The translations under genes were made by a program, and so were the position numbers. The notes under the pieces were generated by a model. That model worked only from the letters and a program-made list of their open reading frames with translations, did no database searches and was not told the DNA's origin. Positions 8,083 to 59,140 of a DNA stretch of 64,000 bases are shown one piece after another (position 1 is the first letter of the stretch; each line of letters starts with the position of its first letter). Origin of the DNA: Erodium maritimum. Its lineage: Eukaryota > Streptophyta > Magnoliopsida > Geraniales > Geraniaceae. The stretch is taken from contig OY997588.1 of the NCBI GenBank assembly GCA_963921825.1, positions 14,336,001 to 14,400,000 on the forward strand, read 5' to 3'.

Positions 8083-8340
8083 GGGTAATTTTCACCTCAA
8101 TACACTAATTATTAATTTTTTTCACCTCAATACCATAACTATTTTTATTGACACCTCAATACCCTAGAATGCCTTTTTTTTCACCTCAATACCCTAACTA
8201 TTTTTTGTGGCACCTCACTACCCTAGAATGCATTTTTGTGGCACCTCACTACCATAGAATGCATTTTTGTGACATTAAAAACTGATTTTTAAAAGAAATT
8301 TTGAAAACCAATGAAATTCTTTAAAAATTTTGATTGTTAG

Positions 8341-11300
8341 TGTAAGAACCACCCCCGGTCGAACCGGTGATTTTTGGTAAAAATTGACTTTTCGTCAGAA
8401 AAGTCAACCAATGACTCCGGGAGTCATTCGGGAACTTTCCGGGACCCAAAAAGCTTAGACGTCATTACGGTTAGCTTAGTTGGGTCATTTCCTTTCAAAT
8501 GACACATTTTGTGAAAAAATCAAACCCGGGTCAAACTACGTCGATTTCGGAGTTTGAACGAATAAAAATATTATGAGCTGAGATATTTTGGGGTAGGAGT
8601 GGTCCTCACATGGACACATGTCCATGCTAGCTTGGAGGAGAAGAAAAGTGGGAGAAAAGACCAATTGGTCCCCACTTAAGGACAAAGGAGAGAGAGAGGG
8701 GCTAAAGGACGAAAGAGACATTTCCACCTTGAGAATAAGATCACATGGGGCAACAAATTCAGCATTTTCCTCCTTGTTGGTCGAACACCATAGCTAGAAA
8801 AGAGAGAAACAACTCCTCCATTGAAACTCCATTGCTTGAAGAAGAAGAAAGGGAGGAAAAGAGAGCTCCTTTGGGCCATTTCTTCACCAAACCTTCTCAA
8901 AAAACATCATCATCTTCATCATATCATCATTCCAAAGGTAAGTAAGCTCTCACAATCTCCTTTCAATCCATTTGAAGTTATGGGTTTTCATAGAAATTGC
9001 ATGAAATGGTTAGGTTTTGAGTTATTGTTGTTAGATGTTTGTTTATGAGAAGAAAATGGATGATTTATGTAGAAATCCTTTGGGGTTTTGTGTTTTTGAT
9101 GAAACCCACCATGGGTCTTGAAACTTTGGAGTGTTTGAGGTGGAATTTGAAGTTCTAAATCCTAAAATTGGTGTTGTGGAGAACTTAGAACTAGTTAGGA
9201 ATTTATTGGGAGAAAGAAAATATTTTTCCGGTGACCGGAGGTTCGCCGAAATCCGGCCATCGGAGGAAGGGAGGACTGGCCATAGCCGGCCACTTTTGGA
9301 CCGTGACCGGCCGGTCCGGTCCGGCCACCCACGGCCATGTGTGGCCGTGGGGCCCACATGGCCGGGAATTGGTGGTTTCGTACTTGGACAGTCTTGGGTG
9401 AACCCCGGGACATTAATTTCACACCCGGAACGAATTATGGATGTGATTCGTGAAATTTCGGGAAAAACGATTAGAAACTTTAATTACGAATTTAGAGCGC
9501 TCGGACCTCGGAATTTAATTCCGTCAAGTTCGTTGGAACAAGTAATTTTAATTATGAACGATAGAAACGAAAAGGGAAATTTTCGGAGTCCCGAGGGACG
9601 TTTTCCCGATTCCGTGCAAAATGGGCCTTCCGGGCCCATTTTGACAAGTTGAGCAATTGGGATTAGTTTGGGTATTTCCCTCTCTAAAACCGCTTTTGAA
9701 TTAATATTAATTCCCGGATTGCCTTTGATCTTAGACGTTGGACCCGAGCTCGGCGGAGGAGACTTTTGGGCATCTTGAAGTGACTAAGCGTTTGGAAAGC
9801 GATCGAGGTAGGGAAGAGTAGTAATTTCCGTTTTTAAATTAAAGAATGTTAATAGTATGCATATAGGACGTTAATAACCGGAAGAGTCTTAGCTTGCATA
9901 TAGGATGTGATTCACTAGAATAACCGCTTTCAATTATGGGAATTGTCGTGTTGTAGAATCACATGTGGCCATGTCGGGCCTTAGGATTGTGTGTTGGTTG
10001 TGTTTGATTGTGGTTAATAGTCCTTAATGTCGATAAAGAGTATATTCGTTGGTTAATTTAAGAATCATAGTATGCTATATGAATTATGATGAATGTGATA
10101 TGAATGGTTGTCTCGTGATATGGTTGAATGAATGGATGTGATGAATGTGATATGAATGGTTGTTTGTGATATAATCGGGTGAATGATAGACCGATATGGT
10201 GTGATTGGTAAGTTATGGTGGTAAGTTTTAACGGTATGATAAGTTCGGTGTGACATGTTTGGCATGGTATGGTATGGTGTGACTTGTACCTCATGATATG
10301 GGAAGATACCCGACCGAGGTGTGTGCCGGTCCGGTATGTTGTTTATGTAATTTACCCCGATGTGAGTTTTCGGGAAGACCGAGGTGCGTTTCCGGTATAG
10401 TGTTTACCCCGATGTGTGTTCCGGGAAGATCGATGATGTGCGTTTCCGGTATATTGTATTTCTTGTTTACCCCGATGTGTGTTCCGGGAAGACCGACGGT
10501 GCATTCCGGTATAGTGTATTGTTTGTTTGCCCCGATGTGTGTTTCCGGGAAGACATCAAGACCGATGTGAATTCCGGTACGATGTGGTTGAGCCGTGCCG
10601 CGTGATCCGGCGTATTATTGAACACTTGTTGTGTGTATGGTTATTAGTGATTGACTGTGTGTGTTTACTAGTTGGTACGTTGTAGTTGCTTATGCATGTT
10701 AAGTGATTCTTGTGTGACTCGAGTGTAACGTTATGGGTGTTCGACAACGAACGGTACGATGTAAATGTTGAGTTGTGCGTGGTGATCGGATTGTCATGGG
10801 TACTTGTTTTATGTTGTGAGATATCGGATATGAGTAATGTTCGTAATGATCTTAGCAAGTATAATGTCCCAGGGTTGGGTGTTGAGAACTGTCCGGTGTC
10901 CTTTCTTATGTCCGTATGATGTCGGGTTTGGGTGACGGTTGTAGTCGAGGTCGTAGAAGATTGTCCTACTGTTTATAGGGTTCTATATCTCGGATCTATT
11001 ATCGATATTGTTGTGCTCATGTTGGTTTCTGTTGTTGTTGTTGTTGTTTATTAATAAGTGTTGGGAATCGAGTAATTATGGCGACGAAACGGAAGACCTT
11101 TCCCGTTACTACTTTTTCCTACTAAGCGTAAGCTCACCCCCTCTGTTTTTATTGTTTTACAGGTTTCGATGGGGAGTCAGTTTAGAGGACGTCTCAGAGC
11201 TCGGTAGCTCATCGAGGGTCCGTGGGTTATCATTTAGTAGAGACGTACTATCTGTTTTTGTACTGAACACTGTTTTCTTATTTGATTTCAAGCGTTTGAC

Positions 11301-11431
11301 TCGCGGGATTTTATTGAGATTTGGAACTAAAATGCGAAGTTATATTTCTTTAATTTCCTTTTATTATTATTATTTTATCGTTACTTAGTTCACGTCTCGA
11401 GTCCGGCCAAAACCGGATTTGGGGCGTGACA
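8341..11431 (+). mobile_element. Giant solo LTR (Ty3/gypsy-type), copy 1
   Basis: A 3,091-bp block begins TGTAAGAACCACC and ends GGGGCGTGACA, with perfect 5-bp TSDs GTTAG at 8336-8340 and 11432-11436. Related blocks at 36124-38936 and 32836-35742 share the ends, the AAGCTTAG...TTGGGTCATTTCC segment and the terminal CACGTCTCGAGTCCGG segment. The copy at 32836 abuts a tRNA-iMet primer-binding site, which shows that these are LTRs and fixes orientation. The length and iMet primer fit a Tekay/Del-like chromovirus, which is inference. No coding remains. Intact TSD suggests it is not very old. Confidence 0.85.
10310..10600 (+). repeat. Minisatellite inside LTR copy 1
   Basis: About five imperfect units of 50-65 bp, each with CCCCGATGTGTGTTCCGGGA followed by GACCGA and TTCCGGTATA. 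The same position in the other two LTR copies holds a tandem array with a different unit. Confidence 0.75.
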
Positions 11432-11615
11432 GTTAGTGAGTGGTATTATGGACTTTTTAAGTGTTTTCATCTAAAAATGGATGACAAATTGACGGCATGT
11501 ATCAAAGTGAAAAAAATGCATTCTAGGGTATCGAGGTGCCACTAAAATAGTTAGGGTATTGAGGTGAAAAAAATTAACAGTTAGGGTATTGAGGTGAAAA
11601 TTACCCATTATTTTT

Positions 11616-12799: not shown

Positions 12800-15700
12800 G
12801 AGAGTGCGATGCTTGGATCCATTCCAGGGCCTGCCAGATTGCCATTGCCTCCGAATATTCAGGGTTTAGGGAACCACTCCCACAGCCATTCCTCGCTTCC
12901 CGAACCCCCCCCCCCCCCCCCCCGTTTCCGTACGACATATCCAACTCCATCCAAACTGACCTGAATCTATAAAGGTAGCTCCATCTACATTGATCAAGGA
13001 CCAGTTAGGAGGTGGTGGTTTCTAGCTAGTTTTCCTATGCTGGGGGATAATGGCGGGTTTCGGTCGGCCATTCTGTGCTTTTGACCAGCTATGCTGGTTA
13101 CTGAGGACCGTGGCAACCAGCTCCTGTGTAGTGGAGGTGGCCTGGTCCCAGACCATAGCATTCCTCGCTTTCCATATCTCCCACAAGAAAAGACAAGCTT
13201 TACTCCGGGACAGAGGATCCGCAACAGAAATATGGCAGAAAGCAAATCATGTAGCGAGGACGATAAAGGAACGGGGATTGGTAAACCTGCAATGTCCCAG
13301 ACCGATCTTGCAAATGGGCAATATAGCAGGAGATGGTCTGTAGATTCCTGTGCGGCTTGACACATTTGGCAAGTGTCCGGAATTGGGACAAACTTTGTTT
13401 GGAGATTCACCGCTACCTGTAGGGTACCAGAAATAGATCGCCAGAGGAATACCTTGATGCGGGGTTGAATGTCTTGGTCCCATATTCCTGTCCATACAGT
13501 CGTTCCAGCCGATACGTGCCAACGGCAATTCTCTCTGGATAGCGCCCTGTAACCCTCTTTGACTGAATAATCCCCTCAGATATTAATTTCCAAGACCATC
13601 TATCTGCGTGTCGGGGAAGTGGCGGGGGTACCTGTAGAACATCCTCAACAATGGACGGAGGAAGGTTTTGTTGTAGTTTCTGTACGTCCCATTGATGAGT
13701 AGCAGTGGCTAGGTCCGACACCCTTAGAGCTGGAGTGATACAAGTATGAAGTGGGATGACCGGATTGTTCCCCATGAGCCATGGGGAGCCCTCAACCATA
13801 GTAGAACAGTCGTCCCCAATAGTTCGAATCAATCCCCCTCGGAGCAGTCCCTGGGTTGTACGGAGACCTGTCCAGACCTGATTGGACCCATTCCCTCCTT
13901 CCGCCGAAAGGAAGTCGCTCTTTGGATAATATCTTGCTTTGAGGATACAGGCAACCAAGCAGTCGGGTTGGGATAATAGCTTCCACCCCATTTTTTCCAG
14001 CATTGCAATGTTCATGTCCCTCATGTCCCGGAAGCCCATCCCACTATCCTCTTTCGGCCTGCACAGTTTCGCCCAATCCTGCCAAATAATCGGTTTCGTG
14101 CCTATGGGGTACCCGCCCACCAGTATCGAGCTAATGCGACGTGGATCTTATTGATAGATTCCCTTGGAAACAGGAACACACTCATCGCATAAATCGGCAT
14201 GGCTTGGAGAACTGACTTGATCATCACCTCCTTCCCCCCCCTGCAGACAGCATCTGACCATCCCATGTTCCAATTTTGGTCATGATTCGGTCACACAGAA
14301 ATTGGAGGCTCTAGCCTTTTCATCGGCCCAACATATTGGGAACACCCAGGTACTTAGTCGGACCAGAGATTTCCTGAATCCCTAATATGTCGCAGTAGGC
14401 CGATCTGTTGGCCGGTGTTGTATTAGTGCTGAAGAATATGGACGATTTACCTTTATTGATGACCTGGACCGAGAGGCAGCCAAATGTATGGAGAATTTGG
14501 TTCATCTGGGACGCCTCTTCCCGATCCGCCCTGCAGAAGTATAACAATCATCCGCAAAGAATATGTGGGAGACAAGCGGTGCCCCTCTAGCCACCAAGAC
14601 TCCGTGAATCTTTCCAGCCCTCTCTGCTTGGTTGAGCATCCGGGACAAGCCCTCCATACAGAACAAGAATAGATACGGAGATAAAGGGTCGCCTTGCCTG
14701 ATACCCCGTCCTACTGTGAATGGTGTCGTATGCTTCCCATCAGAGCTCACTGTATATTCTATGGAACGCATGCAAGCTAAAACCATAGCCCGCCACCCCA
14801 TACCGAAACCAAAGGCTCCCATCATAGATAACAGGAAAGACCACTCCACCCTGTCGTAAGCCTTGCTCATATCCAATTTTAGATCCATAAAGCCTCTTTG
14901 CCCTTGTGTTCTGCACCGGAGATTATATATAATCTCATAGGAGATAATGACATCGTCCTGAATGTGTCTGCCTGGCACAAAAGCTCCCTGGTTTGTAGAA
15001 ATAATCGGGTCCAGGAGTGGTTTTATCCGATTCGCCAGAAATTTAGAAAGGATTCTAAATATCACATTACACAAGGCGATCAGCCTCAATTCTGCAATCT
15101 TCTTTGCCCCTGGGATCTTTGGAATCATGATCAGGGTGATTTTGTTAATGTCCTGGTCAATGGTACATGTCATCACTACAGTACGGACAAAGTCTATCAC
15201 CTTTGGAGACACAGTGTCCCAGAAGTGTTGAAAGAATTTCGGATTAAGTCCGTTAGGGCCTGGAGATTTCGACGGTCACATTTGGAATACTGCATGTCGC
15301 ACTTCCGCGTCTGTTACCCTCTTGGTCAGTTGCATATTTTATGCCGAAGTGATCATACACGGGACAGACATGGGGAGATCATAATCAGCAATGTCGCATG
15401 CGGTGAAAATGTTCGCAAAGTATGAGTGTAGTAACTCACTCATTCCCGTATGCCATTGCACTTCCACTCCTGCATCGTTCATCAGAGTCTTCAGTTTGTT
15501 TTTAGACTGTCGCTTCGTAGACGATCTCTGGAAGAACTTCGTATTACAGTCTCCTTCCCCGAGCCAATGTTGTTTTGCTCTCTGACGCCAAAACTGTTCT
15601 TGTGTTGGCAAGGCCTTATTGTACTATTTCTGGATTGCCAAACACCGTTTGATTCCCTGTCTATCAGTTCGACCGTTTAGCTCGGCTAACGTCCTCTGTA

Positions 15701-23338: not shown

Positions 23339-24530
23339 CAAGTAAAGGCATAATTGTAAAAGCATGGTGTCATGTGGACAAGTGTCCATTTTTTTCTTCA
23401 CCAATTCATTAATTTAATATTTCCCGATTCGTTTGAACTCCGATTAGCTTCAAACTTGCGCCAATATTTTTATTTTTTCAAGGGCTTTAAATCAAGATCA
23501 ATCATGAATATATTTTGAAGCACGAAAATAAAAAGGTATATCGGAGTGATAAAAAATGTTGAGTGTTGATAAATCTTCACTAATAAATGTTTTATATCGG
23601 AGGTAAACTAGTGTTAAATGTTGATAAAAACATGTACTGAGGTGATAAAAATCATGTTCAATTTTGATAATAAGTGTGATAAACTAATCATGATCACTTT
23701 TGGAGAATTGGGTGATAAAACCAGTGTAGAGTGTTGATAAAACCAGTGTAGAGTGTTGATAAAACCAGAGCAAAGTGTTGATAAAAATTAGTCATATATA
23801 ATTTCTTTAAAAACCAGCCCCAAAATATAAAAAAATTTGTGCTTCAAAAAAACCATGTGATGGGGATGATAAAACACATGTAATTGAATGATAAACCTAA
23901 TGTTTAGTGTTGATAAAACTAGTATTCATAAAAAGCATGCGATGAGGTGCTAAAAACATGATCAGTTTTGGAAAATGAGGTGATAAAACCAGTGTAAAGT
24001 GTTGATAAAACCAGAGCAAAGTGTTGATAAAAATTAGTCATATATAATTTCTTTAAAAACCAGCCCCAAAATAAAATAAAATAAATCGTGCTTCAAAAAA
24101 ACCATGTGATGGGGATGATAAAACACATGTAATTGAATGATAAACCTAATGTTTAGTGTTGATAAAACTAGTGTTCATAAAAAGCACGCGATGAGGTGAT
24201 AAAAACATGATCAGTTTTGGAAAATGAGGTGATAAAACCAGTGTAAAGTGTTGATAAAACCAGTGTAAAAGTGTTGATAAATCCAGAGCAAAGTGTTGAT
24301 AAAAATTACCCAGATTTTTAAAAAAAAAAAATCAACACCGATTTTTTTTTCGTGCTTCAAAATATATTCATGACTGATCTTGGTTTATAGCCCTTAAAAA
24401 AACAAAACTAATGGCGCAAGTTTGAAGCCAATCGGAGTTCAAACGAAGCGGGAAAAAATTAAATTAGTGAATTGATTAAAAAAAATAACATGATAGTTTT
24501 ACTAAAAAGCCCTTACCACTTATTAAAAAG
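23339..24530. mobile_element. Inverted-repeat (foldback/MULE-like) element with internal repeats
   Basis: About 190 bp at each end are inverted copies. The best parts are 23398-23533 (TTGAACTCCGATTAGCTTCA, CAAACTTGCGCCA, CATGAATATATTTTGAAGCA) against 24346-24478 on the other strand. The outermost similarity begins near GTAAAGGCATAATTGTAAAA at 23343 and ends near 24523. I found no TSD. The interior (23540-24330) is non-coding and tandemly repeated. Family is uncertain: a foldback element or a long-TIR Mutator derivative. Confidence 0.65.
23560..24320. repeat. GTGTTGATAAAACCAG array with 246-bp higher-order unit
   Basis: The short motif (AGTGTTGATAAAACCAG and variants, about 20 bp) recurs a dozen or more times. 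A higher-order unit repeats: ACCAGAGCAAAGTGTTGATA at 23764 and again at 24010, with the same following text including CAACCCCAAAATA-like and CCATGTGATGGGGATGATAA segments. A third, partial copy starts at about 24282. Confidence 0.8.
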
Positions 24531-54189: not shown

Positions 54190-54511
54190 ACTAGTTTATT
54201 GGTTGAAAGATTTTTTTTCCTAAAATTGTTTTTTGAGTAGGGATGGCAATTTGACCCGGCCCCAACGGGGACCCGATGATTCCGACCCGATCGGGGCAGG
54301 TTCGGATCAGGTCTATTCACACCCAGGGCGGGTATCAGGGCGTTGACCGGGGATGTTGACCGGGTCCGGGTCGGTTCCGGGATTGGTGAGCCCCGCCCCG
54401 ATATGCCCAAGTCCAGCCAAAACCTACCATTTGAGCCAAGGTCCAGCCTAACCATGTGAGCCCAAGTACAGCCCAAGCCAACTATTTGAGACACTCAAAA
54501 ATAAGTGTAGC

Positions 54512-54560
54512 ATGGTTCGAACACATGACCTTCTGGTTAAGGTTTACCAACTCAACTAAG
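54512..54560 (-). ncRNA. tRNA-like pol III module 1 in the hAT element
   Basis: On the minus strand an A-box-like TAGTTGAGTTGG (54558-54547) is followed after about 22 bp by a B-box-like GTGTTCGAACC (54524-54514). It is not a full tRNA: the acceptor stem is not evident. Likely tRNA-derived relic. Confidence 0.5.
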
Positions 54561-54635
54561 ATCAATTTGTGATACATGTATTTTAGCAATATATAAGTAT
54601 AAACTACTTAGCGCAAATAACACTAAAATAGAAAC

Positions 54636-54700
54636 AAGTAGGACTCGAACCTACGACCTCTCACTCTTTTTTGAGTTGTTCTACCAACTCAACCAGTAAC
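54636..54700 (-). ncRNA. tRNA-like pol III module 2 in the hAT element
   Basis: Minus strand: A box TGGTTGAGTTGG (54695-54684), then B box GGTTCGAGTCC (54651-54641) inside a perfect T-arm hairpin GTAGG...CCTAC (54654-54638). Spacing fits a tRNA-type internal promoter. The D-side sequence is normal but the anticodon arm is not convincing and the acceptor stem does not pair clearly, so a functional tRNA is unlikely. The sequence between the two modules is duplicated too, with a CA(A/G)TTTGTGATNC tag after each A box. Confidence 0.55.
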
Positions 54701-54766
54701 AGTTTGTGATCCTTTGTCTATTTTTGTTATATAAGTAACTTGTATGCAATTCTAAACACCTGGCAA

Positions 54767-54818
54767 AGTCCCACATCGCCCATGTTATATAAAATTATCT
54801 TTTCTTGCTTCTATATAA
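54767..54818 (+). promoter_or_regulatory. Plant snRNA-type USE plus TATA pair
   Basis: AGTCCCACATCG at 54767-54778 matches the plant U-snRNA upstream sequence element (RTCCCACATCG). A TATATAA starts at 54812, 33 bp downstream, the spacing known for pol II-type snRNA promoters. A nearer TTATATAAAA lies at 54785. No U1, U2, U4 or U5 RNA start is recognisable downstream, so this is a promoter motif without a known gene. Confidence 0.5.
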
Positions 54819-56710
54819 TGAGGCTCATCTTCTTATTTATAATCAATATATTTATTCTTGAGTTTCTTTGTTAAACTCCATATAGTAAACTTGTTTTACT
54901 AGCATATAATTTTTCTTGATCCAAATCTTAGGGTCTTATTAGTTCAATATTTTTCGAATTTTCACACTTTGTTCTTGATGGATAACTGATGCGGGGCGGG
55001 TCGGGGTCAAGGCCAGGGCGGGGTGTGGCCGGGGCATGCTCGGGTTCGGGGCGGGGACAGGGCAAGACTTTGGGGATCGGGTCAGGGTCGGGTTTTATAA
55101 AACCCGCCCCGTTGCCATCCCTATTTTTGAGTTGTTTTTATTCTCTCCTAGTCTTTAAACTGATCCTCTTTTGAGAGTATCATTTTTATTTTGTATGTTT
55201 TTATCACAAAATATATGATATCATTCTTTATAATAAAAAATATTTTAACCATTTATCCCTATTAGTTTTGAAGTTTTCATCTACGTGCTTTCGTTTCTCT
55301 TGCAACTTGAAACATGAGTAGGAAAAGGAAATGAACGACAACCCTTCTCACGGTATACCTTTGACGACGACGGTAGCATGCTCCGGCAACAACGAGAATG
55401 GAACTCAACTTTCCAGTTCGCTTGGTGAGTCCCCCCTCTCCCGTCCGATGGTAGGTCCATTCGGGATCCTCTTGACAATAGAGGCATGATTAGTGTTCTC
55501 CGCGCAGACGATGATGGAGCCTTCTCCGACCATGCTAGTGGCAGGGGAAGAGGCTTACGTTTAGGAGGTCCATTGGTAACCGAGTGGACTCGTTCGCTGA
55601 ACTTCGGCGCGAGATCCTCGACCTCGGATGCCCCGAGGTATGGCGGGAACCAATCGGTCTCTCCACCATGAACATGTTTGGAAATTAGGCTACCTCCTTG
55701 CGTGACAGAGGAGTAGATTGAGGAGGTCATACTGGTGGTACAAGAGATAATGTAGGGTTCAATGGGCGAGGAGGCCGACGAGGGGTCCGATGAGGACAAC
55801 CGAACTTGGGAAGTACTAGAGTTTCACGGTCAACATCGGGAAGCCGGGACGGCCAGACTTGGAACGCGTAGCTGGCGGCGATAAGGACAAGTACCGGGTC
55901 CTAGGGTTCCAATTACGCGGGTGAGGCCTTGGGGCTGGCGCAGTTAGGGAGGTGGAGGCCTGCCGAGTCGTGGGCCGAGCATTTTGGAGGCTCATTGAGC
56001 CCATTGTCTGGAGCAACAATGGCTTCTGAGGAACAACTAGGGGTACATCGGGAGCTAGACACCTTCTCCCTTCCGACATGACGAAAGCGTCCGGCAGCGG
56101 AAGACCAGGATTTGAAGTTAGAGGGCTCTACAAACTCCGCGGGAGCAAATTGTACAACGACGGGGGGCATGAAGCACCCTCGCATCGCCCACTGAGGAGT
56201 TCGTGGTCAAGTGGGGTTGGCTAGCAACACCGCCTCACTGGACGTAGGGTTGCAGTAGTCCCGCCAAGTTCTGACATGGTACTCTCCTACTACTTTGTGG
56301 GCCAACATTCTTATATTCTTGGAGCCCTACACTATCATTCCATAAAGGAGGACGCACGTTGGTTCCTCGAGAGGGTACATAGTCCGCCTAGACACCACTC
56401 CATAAATAGGCCGACTCTATCTTAGCTTCCCGTTTGGATTCGTTGTACCCAGAGGCGGACTCATAAAGGGCCTAGGGGGGCACGTGCCCCCCTCAAATTA
56501 TAAAAAAAAACATAATATATCCTAAATTTTTATATTTCTGTCTATATAATCCTGTTTTCTACCATGAGTGGCCCCTCGAAAAGTGGAGAAATGTATTATC
56601 ATCTATTTTATTTTTATTTCCTTCCATAAAACTTTATTTTGTTAATAAATTTTCTCTATTTCCTTATATAAAACTCTATTTGGATTATAAATTTTCTAAC
56701 TTCTATATTT

Positions 56711-59140
56711 CTTTTTTGATAGGAATGACAATATTATTAATATAAAAGCATATTGGTGCCTGCAGAAACCTGAGGCACCGTACAAGGAAACCAAACTAAC
56801 ATAACAATAACGACATAAGCAGGAAAGTAAATTTTTCTCTTTGACATCGGGGCGGTCGGAGGGGTGGGACTGCGGTAGCGTCCAAGGACACCGATACAGT
56901 ATACTACAACCATAAGATACTGACCGAGCAGGTCAGAGGATAAGCAACCAGTGGTGGACCGATTACTCCCCCGGTAAGTCAGCGTGCGTCGTCCTCCCTT
57001 GACTGATAATGGTAGGGCTCCTGAACGCGGGATTGCTGACTCCGAAGTGGTAGGGAAGTAATTTACCGACTGTTGGTGGTACCATTGCCACCTATACACC
57101 AGAGAGGAGGTGCAGTCGATCAACCTCTCCCTGGCCAACTCAGCACTCATTCCTGGAGGCGAGGGTGCTTGAAGCCCCCCGCCGCTGCTGAAGACGTCCC
57201 GTTTGACGCCGCTGATTCTTCATCCTCTGCTGAGTCCACATCTCGCCCTGCTCTCTTGTTTCCCGATAGGGTCGGCGTCGATTCCTGCGGCAGCCAGCCT
57301 ACGGGCTCATCTGCTCCCTCTGCCTCCTGCTGACCCCAGCGCCCCATATCCTCATGCCTTAGGGGAGTTCGAGGAGACCCCCTAGACCGGTCCCCCATCC
57401 CCGACCCACTCAGGTAAGTCCAATTTTTCCCCGGGATAGGTTTCCCATGTTTGGCCTTTTCTAGCGCCGACCTCGGGTCCCCTGGTGCCTTCAACGAGAC
57501 TCCCCGGAGACCTCCCACGACCGGACAGACCGGGAACAGGTGTCCCGCGCAGCAGCAATCAAAACAGTGTTCAGGTAAGTGTTCATACGAGATATAGAGC
57601 CGAGTTCGTACGTGAGACACCGACAGCCGGAACCAGAGTTGACTTTGTAATGGAATCCGAATGTCAGCCCTGATCCTGACCTTCATAAAGTCTCCCCAGC
57701 AGAGACCCTTCTTGTCCACATCCACTCCTTGACACACACCCAGCGTGTTTCCAATTCTGAAGCCCACATCCCTCGTCCACGCCCCTATCGGAAAATTCGA
57801 AACCCGTGCCCACACCGAGAAGTGGTGAAAGTGCAGATCCGATACATGCATATGGGCCCGTATGTCAGTGAACAACACCAAGGAGTCCCAGAAGGACCAT
57901 GGTTCGCCCACCAATACACGTACCCTTTCCTTCGCAGACCTGAAGAAAAAAGCCACGAGCCCTCCTTCCAGAGGCTTAGCCTCAACTTTCATACCCCAGA
58001 GATCTTCCATTTGTGCCACCACCGACTTCCAAAAGATCTTCTTGGTAGACAGGACATTCGCTGCTAAAGCGAAGCGATACATATATCCTCGCCCTGTTAC
58101 CTCTTGGACAGGCACCACCACCTCCTTGATCCTCATAGCTCCCATTTGGGAGTCCAGCTGTCCCATGGCTCCTCCCTCCGGTCGCCTTCCCCCCGGGTAT
58201 GGGTCCCCGACCGGGCATGACTTTCCTGCTTGGGTCGGCCGTGTGGTACCCCCATCCGTACGTCCCGCCCCAAACCTTGCAGCCCAACGAGCCACATCCC
58301 CGCCTTCTCCCTGGGCCCATACCGACTTGCGGCCCAACGTGGCCGCCCAGCGAGCATCGCCCATGAACCCACGACCCGGCTCCACCGGGCGTTCAACCCT
58401 ACCCGGCTCCTCAGTTACCACGCCCTTTCCCTTTCTTTGGCGCCAAGCAACCTCGACCGGGGTCTCCTCTACCACGTCCGTCGGGGTCTTGGCCGACCCC
58501 GACGAAACCGGGATCGGCGTGGATTGCTCCCCCAACGCCGTCAGCACCCGGGCACCAGCAGCCACGCCCCGATCCGGGATCAGCGTGGATTGCACCCCCA
58601 ACGCCGTTAGCACCGGAGCACCAGCAGCCACACCCCGATGTACGCCCGTCTTCCTTGGCCGGGGTCCCCTCGCCGGCGTTCGCCGGAGGCAAGCAGGCCC
58701 CGATCGGACCCTACTCCCCGGAACCCAGCCCTGATCCTCCCCTGCCGAGAAACACACGATAGGTGCCCCTCCCGTCCTCGGTGTCCACTGCTCCTCCGAG
58801 TGCACGGGCTCTCCCAACGAACCCGCACCTGTTGTAGGACCCTTCCTTCCGCCACCGTCATCACCAGCGGTGTCAACACCGCTGTCGGCTGCGGCTCCTC
58901 CATCGGATCAGTGTCCGATCGATCTTCACCGGCGTCGGATTCAACACCTACGCCACTCTCCTCCGGCAATACAGGTCCCCAATGAACAAACCCGTCGCCG
59001 ACATACTCTCCACCACCCTCCATACCCGTGAACTCCATGAAGATTGATGCAAAAATCGCAAAACCCTCCTTTTGTAAACCCTAGGTCGTGAGCCCTAGCA
59101 GAGAGAAATAGGGAGGCGCTGCCACTATAATTTTATTTGA
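56711..59140 (-). mobile_element. ORF1-only LINE with 16-bp target duplication
   Basis: TCTAACTTCTATATTT flanks both sides perfectly (56695-56710 and 59141-59156). On the minus strand it runs from a 5' UTR (59140-59039), through a long ORF1 (59038-57147), to a 430-bp 3' region ending CTATCAAAAAAG at 56711. Its total length of 2,430 bp leaves no room for ORF2. The perfect TSD and nearly open ORF1 make it one of the youngest insertions in the window. Confidence 0.85.
57147..59038 (-). pseudogene. LINE ORF1 with DUF4283 and CCHC-type zinc knuckle
   Basis: The ATG at 59036-59038 starts MEFTGMEGGGEYVGDGFVHW. The frame changes once, somewhere in about 58925-58820, and then stays open for 556 codons to 57147. 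A Gly/Arg/Pro-rich N-terminal region is followed by DUF4283 (RFALAANVLSTKKIFWKSVV, EPWSFWDSLVLFTDI, FSVWARVSNFPIGAWTRDVG, DVDKKGLCWGDFMKVRIRAD) and the zinc knuckle CFDCCCAGHLFPVC, which fits CX2CX4HX4C. Such proteins bind LINE RNA. The Ser/Gly-rich tail ends GGFKHPRLQE. A long plus-strand frame at 57862-58734 is its antisense shadow. Confidence 0.8.

Follow-up and report, generated by a model that had tools for sequence, protein, structure and literature searches.

A non-autonomous hAT element of Erodium maritimum with a candidate divergent cassette of tRNA-like and snRNA-type promoter signals

A hAT element with promoter signals on both strands

We analyzed a stretch of 64,000 nucleotides from Erodium maritimum (contig OY997588.1, positions 14,336,001 to 14,400,000), referred to here as the window. 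At 54238-55123 it contains an 886-bp non-autonomous transposable element of the hAT superfamily, with GC-rich ends and an AT-rich interior. The minus strand of this element carries two modules, 137 bp apart, that each combine an A box and a B box, as in tRNA genes transcribed by RNA polymerase III (Pol III). On the plus strand there is an upstream sequence element (USE) of the type found in small nuclear RNA (snRNA) genes transcribed by RNA polymerase II (Pol II), and a TATATAA motif starts 33 bp past it.

The terminal inverted repeat (TIR) TAGGGATGGCAA matches its inverse copy at the other end in 12 of 12 positions, and the target site duplication (TSD) TTTTTGAG is identical on both flanks (8/8), in agreement with an earlier inspection of the letters alone (the sequence-only reading), which had proposed a hAT element with a TSD on both sides. 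The TIRs of hAT elements are short and start with YAGNG, as is the case here, and the TSD has the 8 bp typical of the superfamily. The element is also short, present in many copies and non-coding, with no open reading frame of at least 130 amino acids (aa) listed within 54238-55123. By these features it is classed as a miniature inverted-repeat transposable element (MITE) and as a member of the known hAT superfamily. Its features are listed below with their basis; the identities and rates were obtained from the copy alignments described in the next section.

54230-54237, no strand: left copy of the TSD, TTTTTGAG (sequence comparison of flanks)
54238-54249, plus strand: 5' TIR, TAGGGATGGCAA (inverted match of the ends)
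54250-54480, no strand: 5' subterminal region, GC-rich (first 164 bases 79-91% identical to many copies)
54497-54501, minus strand: T-run of the distal module, possible Pol III terminator (module alignment; column rate not slow)
54514-54522, minus strand: B box of the distal module (identity 0.859; 23/492 alignment windows as high)
54547-54558, minus strand: A box of the distal module (pattern match, copy alignment)
54590-54595, minus strand: TATATA preceding the A box of the distal module (identity 0.967; 3/485 alignment windows as high)
54625-54628, minus strand: T-run of the proximal module, possible Pol III terminator (module alignment, positional count)
54642-54650, minus strand: B box of the proximal module, with a perfect T-arm hairpin in the window copy (pattern match, tRNA model match)
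54684-54695, minus strand: A box of the proximal module (pattern match, copy alignment)
54728-54734, minus strand: TATA-like sequence of the proximal module, upstream of the A box (positional count; column rate not slow)
54767-54778, plus strand: USE, AGTCCCACATCG (identity 0.893; 4/489 alignment windows as high)
54812-54818, plus strand: TATA box TATATAA, 33 bp past the USE (identity 0.911 for 54811-54818; 8/493 alignment windows as high)
54845-54933, plus strand: predicted small RNA of the snRNA type with inferred ends; one hairpin in its 5' part, another at 54921-54933 (fold z, covariation)
54941-54947, plus strand: AGTTCAA, core of the plant snRNA 3' box (AGTNNAA) (motif scan, column rate)
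54990-55111, no strand: 3' subterminal region, GC-rich (near-palindrome at 55085-55110 adjoining the TIR)
55112-55123, minus strand: 3' TIR (inverted match of the ends)
55124-55131, no strand: right copy of the TSD, TTTTTGAG (sequence comparison of flanks)

The two tandem minus-strand modules and the plus-strand USE placed 33 bp before TATATAA had both been pointed out in the sequence-only reading, and both were found as described. Using the pattern TRGYNNARNNGG, 20-70 bases, GWTCRANNC, the two A/B pairs are the only ones in the window, as is the exact USE. One hundred dinucleotide shuffles of the window gave on average 0.17 A/B pairs and 0.04 exact USEs; in no shuffle did two same-strand A/B pairs lie 60-250 bp from each other or a USE precede a TATA at a spacing of 32-35 bp. 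The two modules are paralogs of each other, with identity in 88 of 109 ungapped columns and an alignment score of 75.2, compared with a best score of 58.6 among 6286 other stretches of the window.

A 14-base match, TTTTTTGAGTTGTT, was observed between the proximal module (54667-54680) and the empty target site (54229-54237 joined to 55132-55136). None of approximately 300 random 60-mers from the window matched the interior of the element over 14 bases; the match may be due to chance or to target choice.

Copies of the element in the genome

To retrieve copies, we searched the genome to which the window belongs (763 Mb, 40 contigs); the reverse transcriptase, zf-RVT and DUF4283 domains in the window and its plant-type USE are in keeping with a plant genome. 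At least 58 matches were listed, a lower bound because 40 of 268 candidates were scored. We examined 39 stretches (L017-L055), two of which (L028 and L029) are halves of one interrupted copy; with L029 left out, the counts below refer to 39 copies, namely, the window copy and 38 others, which we call family A. A TIR pair with a perfect 8-bp TSD was present in 19 of the 39 stretches, with one mismatch in 5 and with two mismatches in 2, whereas in the remaining 13 no such combination was found, partly since an end fell outside the stretch. Two types can be distinguished, a shorter one of approximately 820-1000 bp that includes the window copy and a longer one of 1189-1256 bp with a different interior past the modules.

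At least two modules were detected in 27 of the 39 copies, one in 9 and none in 3; the list of A boxes behind these counts was drawn from the A boxes of the copies themselves, so that the counts are biased upward, but the column-identity and tree-rate analyses are independent of it. A USE (at most two mismatches) followed by CTATA at the proper distance was present in 21 of the 39 copies, with a spacing of 33 bp in 20 and 32 bp in 1, and the USE was exact in 13 of these 21.

Individual copies differed in structure. In the longer-type copies L036, L039, L040, L043, L045, L049, and L052, the USE half is replaced by AT-rich DNA with internal near-repeats. L047 has three tandem A/B modules, which indicates that module number varies by tandem duplication. 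L018, L032, and L033 lie approximately 12.45 kb apart and have a common left TSD, and two of the three are without modules; they look like a segmental duplication with a rearranged element, for which reason L032 and L033 were rejected as candidates for an autonomous element. In the interrupted copy L028/L029 (C1:110018100-110026100), a 6.4-kb insertion lies directly past the TATA box. This gap was also discarded as the body of an autonomous element, as its junctions resemble, by eye, those of an inserted TG...CA element.

Conservation of the boxes

Twenty mostly shorter-type copies were aligned, and 12 with less than 85% mutual interior identity were kept, for which the mean interior identity was 0.665. 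The USE (0.893; 4/489 alignment windows as high), the USE-linked TATA (0.911; 8/493), and the TATA of the distal module (0.967; 3/485) exceeded this value. The two B boxes had identities of 0.859 and 0.840 (23 and 36 of 492 windows as high) and the two A boxes of 0.756 and 0.783 (80 and 57 of 489). The proximal TATA (0.731; 119/490) and the CAA sites (0.581 and 0.706; 378 and 160 of 493) did not stand out.

Rates were estimated on a tree of 18 copies, from which L030 and L031 were left out. The eight box sites jointly showed 1.14 changes per site compared with 2.38 elsewhere, and none of 497 shifts of the mask gave a value as low. Taken singly, the sites that change slowly are the USE (11/489 windows as low), the USE-linked TATA (2/494), the distal B box (14/492), and the distal TATA (24/493), whereas the proximal B box was less slow (59/492). 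The stretch at the 3' box (54941-54949) had 1.00 change per site (39/492 windows as low). The sequence of the spacer between USE and TATA is not slow (326/475), yet its length is held. These data support that the modules are family-wide and that the boxes, jointly, change more slowly than their surroundings, at half the rate; the modules thus passed the test by which the sequence-only reading had proposed to refute them.

The modules are tRNA-like but are not tRNA genes

A survey of plant tRNA genes (PMC11700998) describes a layout with which the modules agree, in which TATA and CAA precede the A and B boxes and a T-run follows them. With modules numbered from the USE side, 33/36 first and 26/27 second modules have TATAW at -45 to -18; at least four T in a row follow the B box within 30 nt in 34/36 and 25/27, and CAA occurs in the last 10 bases in 15/36 and 25/27. 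In reading these counts it has to be considered that modules were picked by their A/B-box patterns, so that the boxes themselves are not tested; that the TATA and T-run counts come from AT-rich DNA and lack a chance rate; and that first and second modules are indistinguishable in single-module copies.

In contrast to plant nuclear tRNA genes, the pairing of the cloverleaf is not kept. T-arm and acceptor pairing was equaled or exceeded in 1995 and 1884 of 2000 permutations for first modules and in 1419 and 1605 of 2000 for second modules, which rules out a conserved tRNA cloverleaf in the family. ARAGORN detected no tRNA gene in the window, nor in the 28 copies and relatives scanned. An Rfam scan gave no match at the gathering cut-off; the proximal module scored 22.9 bits for tRNA, below the cut-off of 29, and the distal module gave no tRNA match. 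The perfect T-arm hairpin that had been noted previously does exist in the window copy, but T-arm pairing is not conserved across the family. We conclude that the modules are tRNA-like sequences, not tRNA genes, and that they retain the layout of a Pol III gene rather than a tRNA.

The SINE-like origin considered in the sequence-only reading is not supported. Like tRNA genes, and unlike the head of a short interspersed nuclear element (SINE), the modules are preceded by a TATA and followed by a T-run. Furthermore, module homology reaches upstream to the TATA and the position of the modules in the element is constant, both of which speak against a tRNA-derived SINE.

That Pol III boxes are kept while tRNA pairing is lost would also be expected if the modules acted mainly as DNA, that is, as TFIIIC and SNAPc sites that insulate the element itself or what lies next to it, any RNA being incidental. 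We consider such a role very improbable as the principal one, since most modules or copies contain a TATA, a T-run and a 3'-box core, which only RNA production requires. It is, in addition, compatible with an element that carries a small-RNA promoter cassette, and the two are not mutually exclusive.

A candidate snRNA-type unit on the plus strand

In plant Pol II snRNA genes, USE and TATA are separated by four helical turns (PMC9845283), and the 33 bp observed in the element correspond to this distance. Among eight host U2 loci, two (L081 and L085) passed a search for a USE with one mismatch and TATAW, and both have a spacing of 33 bp. A reading of the USE as a mark of a long terminal repeat was set aside, as the element has hAT ends.

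The 3' box of plant snRNA genes is CA(N)3-10AGTNNAA (PMC5079582). Its core, AGTNNAA, was found 90-150 bp past the TATA in 19 of 21 family A copies, in 15 of 16 copies of a second hAT family (family C, described below) and in 2 of 2 copies of group D2, compared with 7-8% of shuffles; a score of 3/3 for group D relied on two longer motifs that were added post hoc and is no test. Among single loci, the core was present in L064 and L101 and absent in L058, L099, and L100. In the five host U2 loci with a placed 5' end, AGTNNAA was located at +206 (L080), +204 (L081), and +238 (L085) and was absent in two.

Folding of the predicted transcript was better than that of shuffles, with a mean z of -1.74 for family A, -3.85 for family C, -1.13 for group D, and -1.74 for group D2, whereas that of an upstream control was not (-0.29, -0.28, +1.02, and +0.54, respectively). 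A three-helix structure was paired in 85.7% of the cells of 15 family A sequences, and slid versions were all worse. Covariation amounted to 10 double-changed cells versus 3.9 in shuffles (0/500), for a structure that had itself been picked from the alignment. The Rfam scan gave no snRNA match, so that a snRNA of a known family is ruled out. The 3'-box core and the foldable stretch, both unnoticed in the sequence-only reading, turn what had appeared a loose promoter into a candidate small-RNA gene.

The same layout is present beyond family A

The USE 15-mer GTCCCACATCGCCCA has 58 exact matches in the genome, compared with 1 for the reversed pattern. We examined 38 of these 58 places and found TATAW at exactly 33 bp in 30, at 34 bp in 1, and at neither distance in 7. 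The pattern RTCCCACATCG-N33-TATAWA gave 224 genome matches versus 2 for its reversed control; among the sites listed, at least 7 are upstream of U2-type matches by coordinates, and some others are in elements of this kind. These differences bear on the notion that the signals in the window are chance matches. Looser forms of the motifs (USE with two mismatches, B box with one) show no excess over chance in the window, but the shuffles with strict motifs, the identities and rates of the boxes, the 33-bp spacing counts, and the excess of genome matches leave this notion practically no credit.

In family C (CAGTGTTGTAA...TTACATGCCTG), a hAT family with other TIRs, a module on the minus strand is likewise combined with USE-33-TATA and with a 3' motif in collinear position. 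Of 16 copies, 15 have the module pattern upstream of the USE, mostly 81 bp from it, and an exact 8-bp TSD was found in 5. The copies of this family were retrieved via the USE, and its conservation there is therefore no evidence. The layout is also kept in L096-L098, L072, and L090, which combine TAGGGATGGCAA-type TIRs with other interiors, as well as in L058; the distance from A box to USE is 76-87 bp across L058, L090, and L096-L098 and 103 bp in L072. The common layout consists of a minus-strand module with its A box mostly 72-87 bp from the USE, USE-33-TATA, and a 3'-box core mostly 115-140 bp further on. L064 has no module by pattern, though its sequence hints at one, and L059, L099, L100, and L101 contain USE and TATA (34 bp apart in L059) with no module.

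The combination of Pol III and Pol II snRNA signals in a hAT element, as put forward in the sequence-only reading, is thus borne out, but its capture by this single hAT is not, since most copies, divergent subfamilies and a second hAT family with different termini all have the modules at the same position. The simplest account of these sequences is that the cassette is older than the insertion in the window and common to hAT families with different ends.

Several other matches were recorded. L069 and L075 belong to a different repeat that contains the USE 15-mer (three times in L069) and has no TATA at 33 bp. In viral contigs, the USE-TATA pattern gave four matches (L001-L004) and the TIR pattern one (L005), and the matched stretches show no such element. 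The TIR pattern also matched three loci (L006-L008) in other genome contigs, which are bacterial by title only.

Interpretation

Taking these data together, we consider it probable that the element is a non-autonomous hAT MITE with an old, conserved, divergent small-RNA promoter cassette inside. This is supported directly by the anatomy of the element, by the joint slowness of its boxes, by the recurrence of the layout outside family A, both in a second hAT family and in further copies, and by a USE-TATA spacing that matches the one in host U2 genes. We infer transcription, polymerases, RNA ends and benefit from the sequence. A more specific proposal, namely, that several hAT families of this genome own a non-coding RNA gene, in which a snRNA-type Pol II unit is head-to-head with tRNA-type Pol III promoters and which is selected for spread, is put forward tentatively, as somewhat more doubtful than not.

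In the reading that we consider probable, the minus strand would present usually two (one to three) tRNA-like modules, each with a TATA near -30, an A box, a B box, and a T-run, that would recruit TFIIIC, TFIIIB, and Pol III and give rise to short RNAs. A plant SNAPc-like complex and Pol II would be recruited by the plus-strand USE and TATA, which have the spacing of Pol II snRNA genes. Plus-strand transcription would start approximately 30 bp past the TATA and yield a structured RNA of approximately 80-105 nt that would end before the AGTNNAA 3' box. The USE, the TATA, the B boxes, and the 3' core are retained amid considerable drift elsewhere, probably through selection on active elements. 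As to the benefit, we favor either a promoter island that might leave the element accessible to transposase and difficult to silence or an RNA that might aid spread.

A number of results weigh against an old cassette under selection. Several sites do not stand out when taken singly, being slow to a lesser degree or not at all, namely, the A boxes (windows as low: 94/489 and 78/489), the proximal TATA (266/492), the T-runs (279/494 and 204/495), and the CAA sites, the distal one included (287/496 and 135/496). Copies of the same family are not independent. All eight copies of 1189-1256 bp are without USE and TATA and retain at least one module, which shows that the halves of the cassette are separable. 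In the A and C sequences inspected, the AGTNNAA core is not accompanied by the CA part, so that the full 3' box is absent. The reverse complement of the predicted transcript folds as well or better in three groups (z of -2.19 in A, -1.17 in D, and -2.40 in D2), and folding does not settle the strand. Finally, the pair-type count was no higher than in shuffles (241/500), and RNAalifold alone recovered only the 3' hairpin.

Some of these points would be accommodated by passive inheritance, in which an old captured piece of host DNA, with tRNA-like genes and a snRNA-type promoter, is copied unused and the slow sites reflect few masters, composition or chance. Each motif is short, several boxes are unremarkable singly, and the shared ancestry of family copies makes the counts non-independent. 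However, the slow sites coincide with the boxes as a set, the spacer between USE and TATA drifts while its length stays, and the cassette persists across families A and C, whose ends have changed. Passive inheritance appears unlikely in view of these data.

The main rival, which we judge just as unlikely, regards USE and TATA as the transposase promoter of an autonomous parent, with the MITEs as internal deletions that keep the promoter and 5' leader, and the longer type keeping another part. The interior of the longer type differs past the modules, as expected of different deletions of one parent, and MITEs generally arise by internal deletion (PMC7385995). Against this rival, a 3'-box core and a foldable stretch are present at a similar distance past the TATA in families with different ends. 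Moreover, no parent was found in a shallow search, in which 150 of 849 candidates with a hAT dimerisation domain were scored and not systematically matched to cassette places; hAT transposase domains are common in the genome, and this search tied none to the ends of the element. Open frames of at least 150 aa, without assigned identity, are contained in 11 of 16 cassette loci.

Relation to known systems

Rice nDart1 (PMC12595863) and Brassica BniHAT-1/2 (PMC7385995) resemble the window element in their 8-bp TSD, short TIRs, length below 1.3 kb, many copies and non-coding nature (the window copy has no 130-aa frame). The difference is the conserved divergent Pol III and snRNA-type cassette of the window element: tRNA, Pol III, and snRNA receive no mention in the main text of the MITE review (PMC12595863), nor does tRNA in the Brassica paper (PMC7385995). 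Pack-TYPE hAT elements (PMC8903248) also have hAT ends around acquired DNA, but they captured coding DNA, whereas here a non-coding cassette is common to families.

With plant Pol II snRNA genes (U1, U2, U4, U5; PMC5079582, PMC9845283), the cassette shares the USE, the TATA spacing of two host U2 loci, and the AGTNNAA core; it differs in having no known snRNA body and no CA part, in being mobile, and in the tRNA-like modules located head-to-head. The U2 gene of Leishmania, driven by tRNA-like sequences (PMC4950102), is likewise a snRNA gene adjoining a tRNA-like element, but it is a gene of a protist host with a Pol III product and no transposon. The Pr77 promoter of trypanosomatid retrotransposons, bound by TBP and SNAP50 (PMC8190864), is a further case of a transposable element with a snRNA-type transcription factor, but it concerns a retroelement, another motif and other organisms. 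Searches of open-licence papers listed no DNA transposon with such a cassette, which is weak evidence of absence. What appears new is the cassette; the MITE itself belongs to a known superfamily.

The usual view of MITEs is that of deletion derivatives that lack promoters and rely on nothing but their ends. If Pol III and snRNA-type signals are indeed conserved inside families with different ends, the interior would be selected too, which would offer a testable route to how MITEs remain active and multiply. An RNA gene owned by DNA transposons would, if confirmed, be a new kind of RNA gene. It is plausible that such elements spread promoters, as the sequence-only reading had suggested; they would form a mobile reservoir of promoters of the USE/TATA and A/B-box kinds that could seed new small-RNA genes and could confuse the annotation of snRNAs and tRNAs.

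Other features of the window

Apart from the hAT element, the window contains at 8083-11606 a stretch with 12-base inverted ends GGGTAATTTTCA, flanked by a direct repeat of 9 bp, ATTATTTTT, which may be a Mutator-like element. At 23515-24360, a tandem-repeat array lies between inverted ends TTGAAGCACGAA that are accompanied by an 8-bp direct repeat, AATATATT. Fragments of reverse transcriptase of the long interspersed nuclear element (LINE) type and of zf-RVT, together with a DUF4283/zinc-knuckle frame, are located on the minus strand at 12994-15272 and 57147-58904.

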